A stretch of DNA of 64,000 bases, taken from assembly GCF_032842345.1 (NCBI RefSeq), contig NZ_WBKO01000002.1, positions 392,208 through 456,207 of the forward strand. Direction: 5' to 3'. This DNA is from Methanoculleus caldifontis (GTDB lineage: Archaea > Halobacteriota > Methanomicrobia > Methanomicrobiales > Methanoculleaceae). Made by a program: the position numbers and the translations under genes. A model generated the notes under the pieces. The model searched no databases. It had not been told where the DNA came from and worked only from the letters and a program-made list of their open reading frames with translations. This document shows positions 46,712 through 52,622 of this stretch, in pieces (the first letter of the stretch is position 1; the number at the start of each line of letters is the position of its first letter).

Positions 46712-48508
46712 TTAACCGCGGTCTCTCCAGGCTCCCTCCTCTCCTGCAAACCGGTACTCCCCCTCCGGGACGAAGATCTCAAAGCGCACCCCCTCGCCCT
46801 CAAGGCCGGTCTCCCGGATGGTGATGCCCGTGATCGCGAGGATCTCACGGGTGAGAAAGAGGCCGAGTCCCGTGTTCTTCCCGAAACCCTTCCGGAAGAT
46901 CTTCTCCTTATCGGCAGCGGGGATGCCAGTTCCGTCATCGGTATAGACGATCGCAAGACCGCCCGGGGCCCCGGAAGAGGAGACGGATATCCGGGATATC
47001 TCTCCCCCGTGCCGGACCGAGTTCTCCATAAGGTTGTAAAAGACCTTCCCGATCAGGGGGTCGGCATAGACCCGGAGCCCCGCGACCCCGATCTCCACCC
47101 TGACCCCATCCAGCGGGAGTTCGTCTGCCACCTGCCGGATCAGGGCCGCCGCATCGTGCCATGCCGCCTCGTTCACGCCGATATCCTGGTAGAAACGGGT
47201 GAACTCGACCTGCCGCTGGATCGTTCTCGCAGCCTGGAGCTCGTTAGCCACGTAGCGGATAAGCGTCGGGTCCGCGGGCAGGCGTCCCGACTCGAGATCC
47301 ATCTGCGTGATCTCAAGATACCCCAGCAACCCCGCCAGCTGGTTCAGGATATCGTGCCGGGTGATGGACGAGAGGGTGTTGAGCTTCTTGTTCGCCTCCC
47401 TGAGCGCCTTCTCCGCCCGCATTCGTTCCCCGATCTCCGCGTCGCGCTCATGCACGACCTCCTGGACCCTCCGGTACGTCCGGGCGTTCTTCATGGCGAG
47501 CCCGCAGACCTCCGCTATGAACCGGCTGATGTCGATATACTCCTCCATCCGCTCCGGCACGGGGACCCCTTCGAGCAGGAGGATACCGAGACGGGAGGTC
47601 CCGTGCCGGACCTCGATGGAGAACCCGTCCTCGCCGTGCCGTCCGGCGGGCAGGCTCCCCTCCGTAAAAAGTCCCTCTCCCTGCTCCCCGGCCTCGTAGC
47701 AGCCGGGCGGACGGCTGACGATCCTGCCCGCCACCCCTTCGTCGACGGGCGCAAAACCGATCCTTGCCGGGCCGAAGAGGATGGTGAAGAGGTTGAGCAT
47801 CTCCTCTACCACCGTCTCCTCGCTCCGGAGCTCCGTGATCCTGCCGAGTATATCGATGGTCATCGCATAGTCGGCGGATCTCCGGTTCGCCGCGGCGATG
47901 GCGTCCCGGAAGGCCCGGTTTGCGGCATCCAGCCGCCACTCGAGATACAGATGGCTGATATACCGGCGGAGCGGCTCGATGCCGACGGGGATCCGTACGG
48001 CAGGTATCCCGAGCTCCTCACCGAGGACTGCGAGGAGCCGGGGACTCTCGGGGTCGATGCCCGTATCGATCAGCACGACCTTCCGGACCGACCCGCCGGA
48101 GAACTCCTCCGGCGCTCCACCGAGGAGTCCGAGGGCTGCGATGTGGTCCTTCCACCGTGACAGGATGCCCGGGACGACCATGAGCGCCCCCTCCGCGACG
48201 CAGGCGTCGAAGAGGGGTTCGGGCAGGAGGACACCCCGCATGAGGTCGGGTGCCGTCACGGCGGGGCCGGCTCCCGGCCGGTCGGGGGGTTCGAACCTCT
48301 CCCCGCACCTGAGGATGCAGATCCGGTCGCAGGTCTTTTGCATCTCCTGGAACGGGCCCTCGATCTCGTCTCCCCACCGTACCCGCCTCCCACCGCAGCC
48401 GATACAGGACGTCCCCGTGACAAGATCCGGAAACTCCCCGGCGGCAACGACCGCCGCCATCTCGCGGGCCAGGTTCTCGCAACAGAGAACCCCGAACTTC
48501 CGGGTCAT
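46712..48508 (-). CDS. Histidine kinase with N-terminal DUF1638-like, Cys-rich domain
   Basis: A 598-residue soluble kinase. Residues about 1-190 resemble DUF1638, a domain often found near corrinoid methyltransferases: several Cys (CCENL, SCIGCGG, CILRCGE) and VVLIDTGIDPES. A GAF-like segment follows (about 215-345), then a coil, the dimerisation domain SITRHDILNQLAGLLGYLEI (phospho-acceptor His near 387) and the HATPase with NLMENSVRHGG, YTDDGTGIP and GKNTGLGLFL. It overlaps the MtaA/UroD-like gene by four bases, so it is the last gene of a corrinoid-linked operon and may report the state of a methyl donor or cofactor. Confidence 0.78.
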   Translation of the reverse strand: MTRKFGVLCCENLAREMAAVVAAGEFPDLVTGTSCIGCGGRRVRWGDEIEGPFQEMQKTCDRICILRCGERFEPPDRPGAGPAVTAPDLMRGVLLPEPLFDACVAEGALMVVPGILSRWKDHIAALGLLGGAPEEFSGGSVRKVVLIDTGIDPESPRLLAVLGEELGIPAVRIPVGIEPLRRYISHLYLEWRLDAANRAFRDAIAAANRRSADYAMTIDILGRITELRSEETVVEEMLNLFTILFGPARIGFAPVDEGVAGRIVSRPPGCYEAGEQGEGLFTEGSLPAGRHGEDGFSIEVRHGTSRLGILLLEGVPVPERMEEYIDISRFIAEVCGLAMKNARTYRRVQEVVHERDAEIGERMRAEKALREANKKLNTLSSITRHDILNQLAGLLGYLEITQMDLESGRLPADPTLIRYVANELQAARTIQRQVEFTRFYQDIGVNEAAWHDAAALIRQVADELPLDGVRVEIGVAGLRVYADPLIGKVFYNLMENSVRHGGEISRISVSSSGAPGGLAIVYTDDGTGIPAADKEKIFRKGFGKNTGLGLFLTREILAITGITIRETGLEGEGVRFEIFVPEGEYRFAGEEGAWRDRG

Positions 48509-49554
48509 AGAGAGGCCTCCTCAAGCGGATAAGCTCCCCACTTCCGCACCGCAGCAGAGATCGCGAGAAGGACGCTCCCGGGCACCTGCCAGGGGATCTC
48601 GCCGTGGTTGTCCGAGAGGATGAATCCCCCGCCCGGACCGGCGGCGGCGATCGCCCTCTTCACCTCCGTCTCCGCACGGGCAGGCGTCCACCGGCACATC
48701 TCGATCGCGTTGAGGTTCCCGATCACCGCGAGCCTCCCCGCAGACTGCCGTTTCAGGGCGGCGAGATCGTCGAACGTGCTGACACCGACACCGACACTGC
48801 CGGTCCCGGCCAGGTCGTCGATGACGGGGAGGGCCCGTGCGGAGGCGAGGCCGGTCGCAACGTCGCCCCGGATCCGGGGTATGGTCCGCTTTGCCACGAC
48901 AAGACCCGTCCGGCGGTAGAGGTCGAGGGGCGTCATATCCGTCGAGGCAAGGGGATCGGCGTAGGTGACGGCGGTGGCGCCGGCCTCGAACTGGGCGTTT
49001 GCCCACCTGACGCAGAACTCCTCGTTCTTCGCCATCAGTTTCCAGAAGAGGTCCGGCTCACCGTAGAGAAGGTCGATGTACGCGTCAAACCCCATCTGTA
49101 TCACCGGGAGGGAGAAGGGGGATACCACCGAGCCTATGATGGGCACGTCGTCGCCGACCTCCCGCTTCAGCAGTTCGATCGTCCGGAGTCCGAAGAGCAG
49201 GGACGGGCTCTCCTCGACGGTCGGCACCTCGAGGGCTTCGATCTCGTCGGCCTCCCGGATCGGCGGCCGGCCGGCGTTGGGCGGACCGTCGTCGCGGAAG
49301 ATGACCTCTCCTCCCCAGGCCTCGACCTCGGAGGCCGCGTAGCAGAATGAGGTGACGCAGTCGCCGCCGAACTTCTTTAAGAGCCGGAGCTGGCCCGCGG
49401 CGACGTACTCCGGCCGGGAGAAGTACTCCCGGATGGAGAGCCCCAGCTCCTTCGCCCCGTACATGGTGAAGAAGAGGAAGAGCGGGACACGGTCGGGCTC
49501 CTCGAACCTCAGGGCAGCGGCGGTCCTCTCCGCCGGCGTCATCTCTCCGGCCAT
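48505..49554 (-). CDS. MtaA/uroporphyrinogen-decarboxylase-fold protein
   Basis: A 349-residue UroD/MtaA-superfamily protein. Members with zinc ligands move methyl groups from corrinoid proteins to coenzyme M. The fold is clear (TPAERTAAALRFEEPDRVP, VIQMGFDAYIDLL, AVIGNLNAIEM), but the usual HxC zinc motif is absent: the region reads IRGDVATG, and the late Cys is replaced by SDNHGEIP. A normal methylcobalamin:coenzyme M role is therefore doubtful. It overlaps the corrinoid protein gene by 16 bases and the kinase by four. Confidence 0.8.
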   Translation of the reverse strand: MAGEMTPAERTAAALRFEEPDRVPLFLFFTMYGAKELGLSIREYFSRPEYVAAGQLRLLKKFGGDCVTSFCYAASEVEAWGGEVIFRDDGPPNAGRPPIREADEIEALEVPTVEESPSLLFGLRTIELLKREVGDDVPIIGSVVSPFSLPVIQMGFDAYIDLLYGEPDLFWKLMAKNEEFCVRWANAQFEAGATAVTYADPLASTDMTPLDLYRRTGLVVAKRTIPRIRGDVATGLASARALPVIDDLAGTGSVGVGVSTFDDLAALKRQSAGRLAVIGNLNAIEMCRWTPARAETEVKRAIAAAGPGGGFILSDNHGEIPWQVPGSVLLAISAAVRKWGAYPLEEASL

Positions 49555-50225
49555 ACGGCTCCCCCCATCATCCGGACGGCCTCGAGGGTCTCCGACGCCG
49601 AGCAGCCGAAGGCATCGGCTCCCGTCTCTCTCCAGAGAGCCGGGTCGAACCTGAACGGCGCGCCCCCGACGATCACCCGGACTTCCGGCATCGCTTCCCT
49701 GATGCGGGCGATCGCCTCCCTGGCCCTGAGCGCGGCGGGGAGCATCAGCGTGGATATGAGCAGGATCTCGATCCGGTCCCGGATCACGCTCTCCACGAGC
49801 GAATCGACCGTCACTCCCGAGCCGTAATCGATCACCTCGTAACCGCCCGCCCGGAGCACGGCGAGGATGATCTGCTTGCCCAGGGTGTGGTGGTCCTCAA
49901 GAACTGCTATCGCAATCTTCGGCCGGTGCCTGCGGCTGGGACTGCCCGGCGGGAGCATCGTATTGACAACCTCCTCGCAGATCCGCCCGCTGATGTAGAC
50001 CTGCGAGAGAGCAACCTGCCCCTGCTCCCAGTCTCTCCCGATCTCTTCGAGAACAGGGATGATCAGGCCCTCGATACAGTCGACGGGGGAACCCGCGGCG
50101 CAGGCGTCCCGTATGATCTTCCCTGCCCGCATCCGGTCCACACCCAGCAGTGCCTCCTTGAGTTCATCGCCAGAGGAGGAGAGGGGTGCGGCCCGGCCCG
50201 GGAGATCCTGGAACTCCGGTCCCAT
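49539..50225 (-). CDS. Corrinoid (B12-binding) protein, MtaC/MtbC-like
   Basis: A 228-residue two-domain protein. The helical cap domain spans about 18-95 (ELKEALLGVDRMRAGKII, then IPVLEEIGRDWEQGQVAL), and the Rossmann B12 domain about 100-225. The cobalt-ligand motif DxHxxG is present as EDHHTLG near residue 111, with GVTVDSLVESVIRDR and GGAPFRFDP as further parts. It should shuttle methyl groups or act as a B12-dependent sensor. The frame is open upstream to the PAS gene stop (51 codons) but contains no ATG, GTG or TTG there. Confidence 0.87.
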   Translation of the reverse strand: MGPEFQDLPGRAAPLSSSGDELKEALLGVDRMRAGKIIRDACAAGSPVDCIEGLIIPVLEEIGRDWEQGQVALSQVYISGRICEEVVNTMLPPGSPSRRHRPKIAIAVLEDHHTLGKQIILAVLRAGGYEVIDYGSGVTVDSLVESVIRDRIEILLISTLMLPAALRAREAIARIREAMPEVRVIVGGAPFRFDPALWRETGADAFGCSASETLEAVRMMGGAVWPER

Positions 50226-50381
50226 GCAGTAGAGGTGTTCTGCCGTGAGGATAAATGAATCGGAAGAGAACCGGAGACGGTAGACGATATTGTCGGATTC
50301 CGGGCCGTAGTCGATGTTATGGGGGCGGAAGAACAGGCGTCCGGGTGAGGACGCCGGGGCCCGATAGAGGACCGGCCCTCC

Positions 50382-52622
50382 TCACGCCAGCTCGTGCTTC
50401 CGGAGGAACTCCCTGACCTGCCTCGACTCGATCCAGCCCCGGTCGAGATCCGTGATGTAACCGTTGATCCGGTCGACCTGTTCACGGATCCTCCCCGTGA
50501 TCCTCTCTTCGTCGAACAGTTCGCTCATGCCGAGGATCACCTGGAGGGGCTGGCGGATGTGGTCGCCGAGGATGGCGAACTGTTCGATGTTCCGCTCGAT
50601 CTGCTCGAAGGCCTGCTGCCGGAGCTGCTCGTTCTGCTTCCGCTCGGTGACGTCCCTGCCGACCACGTGAACCCCGATCACCGACCGCTCGCGGACGATC
50701 GGGGACTCGTTCAGTTCAAGGAACGCCACGGACCCGTCTTTACGGCGGAACTCGATCTCGAGCCCCTCGACCGGTTCGCCCCGGACCACCTTCTTGCGCC
50801 CCTCCTCCCAGACAGGGAGGGACGACGGGGCGACGTAATCGCGGCACTTGCGGCCGGTCAGTTCGCCCGGGGTGTAGCCGAGGATCCGTATCACCGCCGG
50901 GGAGATGTAGGCGATCCCCCCGTCGTGGTAGCAGGTGTAGATCATGTCGAAGCTCTGCTGCGTGATCTCCCGGAACTGCGACTCGGTCTTCTCGAGGTGC
51001 TCACGGGCCTGGAAGAGTTCGATCGTCCGGCCGAGGCGCCCGGCGACCGTATCGACGAGCGCCCGCTCTTCACGGAGGAACGGCCCCTCGTCCGCTTCCG
51101 GCATCTCGCGGATATAGCAGACCTCAACCGCCCCGACCATCTCCCCGTGGACGACGACCGGCGACGCCTGCCGCCAGGGCGTCTCCCGGAACCCCTCCGT
51201 TTCAAACCCGCGCCCGCGTATCGTGATCCGGGCGGCGGCATCCTCCGGGTACTGCCAGCCGGAGGGAAGCACCAGGGCGGCTTCACGGAAGATCTCATCG
51301 AGCGAGATCCCCGGCCGTTCGACTATCCGGGAGATCCCGTAGAGGCACGAGAGTTCTTTCACCCGCTCGTTCAGGTCATGCGTCAGACTCCGCAGGGCAT
51401 CCTCCACCCGCCTCCTGTCGGTGATATCCCGTGAAGTGACCGCGATCCGGGTGACGGTGCCGTCCGCACCCCGGACTGGATAGAGCACGGTATCGTACAG
51501 GCGTCCCTCCCACATATCTTCGAACCGTGCCGGCTTGCCCGAGACGGCGACTTCGTGGAGGCGGGCCGCGTACATCCCTGCCACATCCGGCGGGAAGAGG
51601 TCGGATAGGCTCGTGCCGATAAGGCTCTCCCGGGAGAGACCGAACCGCCGGATCGATGTCTCGTTAGCGTCGATGAGCCGGCCCTCCGGATCGAGGAGGA
51701 CGATCAGCTCTTCGGGAGCGTCGAGGAGAGCACGGGCGGTCACTTCGCCCGCGCGGCGTTCATCCTCGGCACGTTTCCTGTCGGTGATGTCGTAGAGCTG
51801 TTCGATGACGAAGACGACCTCCCCCCGCTCGTCGAGGATGGGGCTGGAGCGACACTCCAGGTGGCGGCCGAGCTCGGGTACGAACTTCTCGACGACCGCG
51901 AGCCTCCTGCTCGCGAGCGCCCGGTCCGTCGCGCAGACCGTGCAGGGTCCGGCCCGCCCGATCAGCTTGTAACATTTCCGTCCCTTCGCCTCCTCCGGCG
52001 TCACCCCGAGGATCTCGTAGCCGGCCCGGTTATACCGGAGGATGGTATGGTCAGGGAACTGGATGCCGACGATATCGCCGAGGTTCTCGAAGAGGCCCGA
52101 AAACAGAGGATCGATCTCCTCGCCGGTGACGTCCTGCCAGGTGACGGCGGCACCGGAGATCGCACCGGACGTGACGACGGGCGAGGCGGATACGGCGAGC
52201 CGGACGATCCTCCCTGAGCGGTCGCGGACGGTCAGCCGGCAGGACCGGAGATCCTCTCCTGCAAGGGCCCGGTCTCCGGGAAGGTCTCCGGGCTCGACCG
52301 GTCTCCCATCTGGATAGGAGACCGATACGTCCCCAGCCGTCTCCCCATTCCCTGAGAGCGCCCGGGCTATCCCGGTTTCCTCATCCGAGCGCGCCGCAAT
52401 AACCCGGCCGTCGCGATCGTAGACGGCGCCCTGCCGGCCGATGGCGGCAAGGAGCGCGTCGCGCTCCGCTTCGGCCCGGACGGCGCGGGCGGCAAGGCTC
52501 CGGTTCTCATCAACCAGGGTCTCGATGCCGTCTCTCAGCCTCTCCCGTGACCGGGGGTCGAGGGCTTCGTCTCGCAGCATCTGCAGGAGTTCTGCCGCGG
52601 ACGGATCGGGCTCGCTCTCCAT
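50382..52622 (-). CDS. Multi-PAS/GAF signalling protein with a short kinase-like C-terminal module
   Basis: A 746-residue soluble sensor. It has an N-terminal coil, PAS domains at about 65-165, 175-285 (with a Cys-rich loop CYKLIGRAGPCTVC), 300-405 and 560-670, and a GAF domain at about 425-550. The C-terminal 75 residues hold an H-box-like GDHIRQPLQVILGM and the conserved ending RGWIESRQVREFLRKHEL, but no HATPase domain follows. The same module ends the protein at 60024. It lies 156 bases before the corrinoid gene on the same strand, so it may be the sensor for that operon. Confidence 0.82.
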   Translation of the reverse strand: MESEPDPSAAELLQMLRDEALDPRSRERLRDGIETLVDENRSLAARAVRAEAERDALLAAIGRQGAVYDRDGRVIAARSDEETGIARALSGNGETAGDVSVSYPDGRPVEPGDLPGDRALAGEDLRSCRLTVRDRSGRIVRLAVSASPVVTSGAISGAAVTWQDVTGEEIDPLFSGLFENLGDIVGIQFPDHTILRYNRAGYEILGVTPEEAKGRKCYKLIGRAGPCTVCATDRALASRRLAVVEKFVPELGRHLECRSSPILDERGEVVFVIEQLYDITDRKRAEDERRAGEVTARALLDAPEELIVLLDPEGRLIDANETSIRRFGLSRESLIGTSLSDLFPPDVAGMYAARLHEVAVSGKPARFEDMWEGRLYDTVLYPVRGADGTVTRIAVTSRDITDRRRVEDALRSLTHDLNERVKELSCLYGISRIVERPGISLDEIFREAALVLPSGWQYPEDAAARITIRGRGFETEGFRETPWRQASPVVVHGEMVGAVEVCYIREMPEADEGPFLREERALVDTVAGRLGRTIELFQAREHLEKTESQFREITQQSFDMIYTCYHDGGIAYISPAVIRILGYTPGELTGRKCRDYVAPSSLPVWEEGRKKVVRGEPVEGLEIEFRRKDGSVAFLELNESPIVRERSVIGVHVVGRDVTERKQNEQLRQQAFEQIERNIEQFAILGDHIRQPLQVILGMSELFDEERITGRIREQVDRINGYITDLDRGWIESRQVREFLRKHELA

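Follow-up and report, generated by a model that had tools for sequence, protein, structure and literature searches.

We analyzed, by computational means throughout, a 64,000-nucleotide stretch of the Methanoculleus caldifontis genome (assembly GCF_032842345.1, contig NZ_WBKO01000002.1, positions 392,208 to 456,207; hereafter the window) that contains a small gene cassette joining a corrinoid protein to a sensor kinase. Four genes lie on the minus strand in the 5' to 3' order PAS-domain protein (50382-52622), corrinoid protein (P0003, 49539-50225), MtaA/UroD-fold protein (P0002, 48505-49554), and histidine kinase (P0001, 46712-48508). The kinase gene overlaps the UroD-fold gene by 4 bases and the UroD-fold gene overlaps the corrinoid gene by 16 bases, in agreement with an earlier note on this DNA, made from the sequence alone, that had described four minus-strand genes, three of them overlapping by 4-16 bases. 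The PAS gene has no overlap and ends 156 bases ahead of the corrinoid gene. The earlier note had taken all four genes as one set. Three of them form the core, encoding the corrinoid protein, the MtaA/UroD-fold protein, and a DUF1638-like–GAF–histidine kinase; the PAS gene was rejected as a fourth core part because it is replaced or absent outside the genus. No description of this cassette was found in the open-access literature searched.

An archaeal TATA-like element, TTTATC, is located at 50250-50255 on the minus strand, approximately 25-30 bases 5' of the corrinoid ATG. All 5 of the upstream regions aligned within the genus keep it unchanged, and it is likely the promoter of the three-gene unit. 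A hairpin between the PAS and corrinoid genes (50336-50355, minus strand), a weak match in a scan for terminator-like structures, is a possible end of the PAS transcript. Given the conserved TTTATC and a hairpin after the PAS gene, the trio is probably a separate transcription unit.

P0003 (228 amino acids) consists of a cap domain (residues 20-88, PF02607) and a B12-binding domain (residues 105-217, PF02310). The DxHxxG cobalt-ligand motif reported earlier was found at D111, H113, and G116, accompanied by SxL and GG motifs, and the DxHxxG-SxL-GG combination was invariant in 77 of 77 members of the family. This architecture and DxHxxG are shared with MtaC/MttC-type corrinoid proteins, although P0003 scored 83.8 bits against the curated NCBIfam model for that group (TIGR02370), below its cut-off of 215.3. 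P0003 also differs from them in being paired with a kinase gene, whereas no partner substrate methyltransferase was found in searches for MtaB and MttB. It is the single MtaC-type corrinoid protein found in the host genome, where two other B12-binding matches were weak.

P0002 (349 amino acids; PF01208, E 2e-50) shares the UroD TIM-barrel fold of the methylcobamide:coenzyme M methyltransferases MtaA, MtbA, and CmuA (TIGR01463; structure 4ay7). When a fused member of the family was searched with Foldseek, MtaA (4ay7) was the closest solved structure, with a template modeling score of 0.87 by target length. The earlier claim that this protein lacks the zinc site of MtaA was correct: the H-x-C motif is replaced by G235-L-A237 and the late Cys by H317. 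Among 31 Methanosarcinaceae UroD-family proteins used as a reference, 29 had HxC and all 31 had the late Cys. In the cassette family, by contrast, the Cys of HxC is Ala in 78 of 81 members (HxA, or GLA in the window) and His replaces the late Cys in 81 of 81, within an invariant block, [S/A]DNHGEIP. P0002 is therefore not expected to carry out the zinc-dependent thiol activation that coenzyme M requires. Its score against TIGR01463, 96.8 bits, also fell below the cut-off of 235.4.

The third protein, P0001 (598 amino acids), was described earlier as a DUF1638-like domain fused to a complete kinase. The second part of that description holds and the first is probably right, by way of the protein's family, but a GAF domain between them had been overlooked. 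The DUF1638-like domain occupies residues 1-175 (47984-48508, minus strand), the GAF domain residues 230-345 (47474-47821, minus strand), and the kinase core residues 385-582, from H385 to the end of HATPase_c (46763-47356, minus strand; PF02518, E 1e-13). The kinase is complete, with a HisKA-like phospho-acceptor H385, an N-box, and G-boxes; H385, N496, D524, and G526 were invariant in 11 close homologues. In an AlphaFold2 model (predicted local distance difference test score 85.9), an alpha/beta domain and a long helix were seen together with a GAF domain, the last matched by Foldseek to the GAF domains of DosS and KdpD. The N-terminus of P0001 alone gave no Pfam match to DUF1638 even at E < 10. 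Its probable assignment to DUF1638 comes from its relatives: 54 of 64 homologous third proteins matched PF07796 and the family's N-terminal profile aligned with the true DUF1638 profile in hhalign (Prob 87, E 4e-6). The regions around C10 and C68 and the PGxLxxW and LxDTG motifs are common to both, and Cys10, Cys38, and Cys68 were conserved in 57, 53, and 55 of 58 sequences, respectively. DUF1638 proteins are free-standing, whereas the cassette domain is fused to GAF and a signaling output, has the extra conserved Cys38, and in P0001 has lost the third DUF1638 Cys. No solved structural homologue of the domain stood out; the sequence search was unhelpful and Foldseek matched the GAF part. The outputs among the 64 third proteins were HATPase_c in 51, HisKA in 40, receiver domains in 12, and GGDEF in 7. 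Within the third gene, GAF was the part most consistently present, and it persisted where the DUF1638-like part was missing.

We scanned 84,980 genomes, one per species, with the UroD alignment alone as the query. Because the scan detects a protein only if it contains either of two conserved peptide patterns, all counts are lower bounds. At least 327 UroD relatives were found, and the best-scoring 80 loci (54-83% identity) were kept, so that more distant members may differ. Genes at these loci were called by a simple procedure of our own and checked with profiles. Although it was absent from the query, the corrinoid gene lay immediately upstream of the UroD gene in 78 of the 80 loci. A DUF1638-like third gene was directly downstream in 65, and in 2 more it followed a second UroD-family gene (67 in total). 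In most loci the cassette genes overlapped or were no more than 30 bases apart. Within the host's phylum, the UroD protein was present in 28 of 393 genomes searched, and all 20 further archaeal loci taken from those genomes had the corrinoid gene and a third gene bearing GAF, with the DUF1638-like part in 18. In a rapidly built tree, whose outgroup branches are long and whose deep nodes are weakly supported, all members formed one branch, separate from MtaA and spanning 13 phylum-level groups with partial mixing of phyla; several of the loci come from metagenome bins, for which the assigned organism may be incorrect. Distance correlations among the three cassette proteins were 0.62-0.78 compared to a permutation maximum of 0.22, from which we infer that the set has been largely inherited together. 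A natural corrinoid-UroD fusion was found in Candidatus Brocadia (locus L132), and a second, divergent one at locus L152. Neighborhood conservation had been named beforehand as a test of the suggestion that the genes form a sensory module; the kinase gene is kept with the corrinoid gene, the two are strictly conserved together, and the suggestion stands. The idea that the association is a matter of chance or of a lineage-specific neighborhood, with no functional link, is contradicted by overlapping genes, two fusions, and conservation across two domains of life and 13 phylum-level groups, and we give it practically no credence.

Within the genus the cassette was patchy (6 of 35 genomes), and dN/dS (the ratio of nonsynonymous to synonymous substitution rates) of approximately 0.1-0.4 indicated purifying selection. 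One genome of the genus (G061, L033:8217-13032) showed joint decay of the cassette: the corrinoid gene and the start of the UroD gene are deleted and the kinase gene carries a stop. The end of the PAS gene there abuts UroD codon 109.

The host genome was searched for components of methylotrophy, with Methanosarcina acetivorans as a control that was positive every time. No MtaB or MttB was found (the MtmB and MtbB families were outside the search), nor was RACo/RamA, a true DUF1638 protein, or any UroD-family protein besides P0002. Host methylotrophy was rejected for the families tested. The earlier note had proposed to look for a substrate methyltransferase and had stressed a lineage not expected to grow on methylamines or methanol. 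The host does lack the tested methylotrophic proteins, and the sensory suggestion is unharmed by the search for these two methyltransferase families; however, the cassette is spread over many bacterial phyla and is specific neither to methanogens nor to Methanoculleus-like genomes.

Two-component genes were frequent around the cassette. Among operon neighbors, receiver domains were found in 17 of 35 downstream and 13 of 27 upstream, and HATPase_c in 13 of 35 and 13 of 27, respectively. No response regulator adjoins the kinase gene in the window, whereas many relatives have one alongside. Taken together with the kinase and GGDEF outputs, these data make it very probable that the cassette acts in signaling. 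With somewhat less than firm confidence, we favor the reading that the three genes are a corrinoid-based signal-input module, in which the UroD-fold partner sets the state of a corrinoid bound to protein and the kinase reads that state. P0003 would carry a B12-type cofactor, and P0002, without a thiol-activating zinc site, would dock onto it. P0002 would most likely control ligand or methyl access, so that a small methylated (or other cobalt-reactive) ligand alters the cobalt state. The DUF1638-like domain of P0001 would then recognize P0003 in a particular cobalt state, and the DUF1638-like and GAF region would set autophosphorylation of the kinase core accordingly, with phosphate as the output. 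Methylation may be the likeliest change at cobalt, and its role as the switch is put forward tentatively.

Several observations weigh against this model. The His of HxA is also lost in the genus, which makes it doubtful that P0002 turns over as an enzyme. A methyl-transfer cycle normally requires Co(I) and a reductive activator; since no RACo was found in the host, a catalytic cycle would depend on a different reductant or be limited to a single turnover. In the AlphaFold2 model of the natural L132 fusion, built on an alignment that included trimmed copies of the fusion itself so that its two halves stayed in register, the domains folded as expected, yet the predicted template modeling score of 0.60 did not fix their docking arrangement. 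The third gene had GAF without the DUF1638-like part in 10 of 80 loci, mostly in Desulfobacterota and Nitrospirota. Finally, two DUF1638-like–GAF–kinase genes homologous to P0001 (L043:9496-11277 and L044:9407-11173) have no corrinoid or UroD-family genes in the surrounding stretch of approximately 20 kb that was searched.

Some of these points could also mean that the corrinoid acts directly as a ligand sensor (of redox, nitric oxide, oxygen, or light), with no methyl transfer and the UroD-fold protein as a structural cap. The family-wide loss of the zinc site, the loss of the remaining His in the genus, and the failure to find a reductive activator in the host genome would all suit such a sensor. 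Known B12 sensors bind light or adenosyl ligands, and CarH and photocobilins, which likewise use a cap and a B12-binding domain for sensing, were among the matches. The cassette differs from both in having a separate UroD-fold partner and a kinase output, and in lacking Wx9EH, the cap motif of CarH. The cassette family has W66 followed by Q75-[V/I]76-Y77 (Q75-V76-Y77 in the window protein), and the CarH model scored the window protein at 41 bits, below 400. CarH-like sensing of adenosylcobalamin was therefore rejected. Light sensing is unlikely for anaerobic methanogens, and the strong conservation of the UroD fold, with its own invariant [S/A]DNHGEIP block, exceeds what a mere cap would need. 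We consider a direct ligand sensor unlikely, though deserving of serious attention.

Instead of an external compound, the module could monitor the corrinoid supply or the methyl status of the cell itself, for example through the methyl-corrinoid reactions of methanogenesis. The hosts differ greatly in diet and no conserved transporter was found among the scanned neighbors, both of which would be in keeping with an internal signal. However, genes for B12 uptake or synthesis were not prominent among those neighbors, and presence in so few genomes of the genus does not fit a housekeeping monitor. There appears to be only a small chance that this explanation is right.

Alternatively, the corrinoid-UroD pair could be the enzyme of an unknown methyl-transfer pathway, with the kinase regulating it locally. 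The folds and the B12 motif are typical of methyltransferase systems, the cassette of Azoarcus sp. KH32C is located in a methylotrophy island, and the mec cassette for dichloromethane combines enzymes with a kinase (PMC9768040). Against this, the third gene, which adjoins or overlaps the pair, is conserved almost as consistently, the one-carbon genes of Azoarcus recur near none of the 80 loci apart from one folE match, and neither the MtaA-type, MtaB, and MttB enzymes nor their activator was found in the host. An enzyme of this kind is thus quite improbable.

Returning to the corrinoid-state input module, the mec cassette resembles it in layout, with a kinase gene (MecA) beside genes for a corrinoid protein (MecB) and UroD-type proteins (MecC/E/I), a regulator (MecD), and MecGH. 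It differs in having several methyltransferases and a catabolic role. MecA has been described with a PocR domain (PMC9768040). Going by published identities, MecC is probably outside the cassette UroD family, as its relatives in databases share less than 40.4% identity (PMC10344839). The GAF/PAS sensor kinases of methanogens share with P0001 a GAF domain and an ordinary HisKA/HATPase core, but the input of the cassette would be two B12-type proteins from the same operon. The cassette may be filed as a variant of two-component signal input, built from MtaABC- or mec-like parts with a logic like that of B12 photoreceptors. A broader proposal, that bacteria and archaea have recruited a corrinoid/methyltransferase-fold pair as a methyl-sensing (or cobalt-ligand-sensing) front end feeding a DUF1638-GAF receptor and thereby kinases or diguanylate cyclases, would make this a new sensory class; it is an attractive idea in which we have limited confidence.

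The fixed trio ties B12-type proteins to two-component and cyclic di-GMP-type signaling, and occurs in methanogens as well as in Chloroflexi, sulfate reducers, and methanotrophs. Should the corrinoid state prove to be the signal, cells would be using parts taken over from enzymes to detect methylated compounds or the chemistry of corrinoids. In Phaeobacter, a DUF1638 protein is required together with a B12-dependent methionine synthase and a RamA-like protein (PMC5764234); a role in B12 reactivation was proposed, although the authors assigned no specific function (PMC5764234). For this family, which has a genetic B12 phenotype and no specific function, a corrinoid-state signal would supply a testable role, and if the new sensory class is real, DUF1638 might be a general reader of corrinoid state.

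The PAS protein upstream of the trio (746 amino acids, minus strand) has several PAS folds and a HisKA-like C-terminal end by Pfam, with no ATPase domain. That end, DHIRQPLQVILG, may be phosphorylated in trans or may serve for dimerization alone. Of the 5 other cassettes in the genus, 4 have an orthologue on their upstream side; outside the genus, its position is taken by other sensor or response-regulator genes or is empty. The PAS protein is an additional, lineage-specific sensor and a genus-level neighbor of the core.

Variant arrangements were observed at several loci. Four third genes (L096:11062-11793, L098:11096-11791, L110:3385-4173, and L144:11076-11813) have neither the DUF1638-like part nor a kinase, and encode a GAF domain with a short Cys-rich tail after it, LPICxxCKxxRDDxGYW...HSxAxFSHxIC. 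In Hyphomicrobiales fen_921, a divergent second cassette (L152:4156-6788) lies just upstream of the main one and encodes a corrinoid-UroD fusion of approximately 663 amino acids, then a separate DUF1638-like protein. The UroD part of this fusion has YxCG and is missing the DNHGEIP block. At L149:9349-12831 and L154:2442-5613, two tandem UroD-family genes and one or two corrinoid genes are followed by a single kinase gene.

In Azoarcus sp. KH32C, the cassette is on plasmid pAZKH (L190:21289-24756), in an island with genes for methanol dehydrogenase, fae, fhc, and tetrahydromethanopterin, and with RuBisCO nearby. This context hints at a one-carbon signal, although one-carbon metabolism was set aside as a weak lead for the cassette in general, because the island's genes are not repeated at the 80 other loci apart from the folE match. 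The cassette proteins carry generic names in the Azoarcus record: cobalamin-dependent protein, uroporphyrinogen decarboxylase family protein, and ATP-binding protein. A UroD-family match in such a genome need not imply heme synthesis or methylotrophy.

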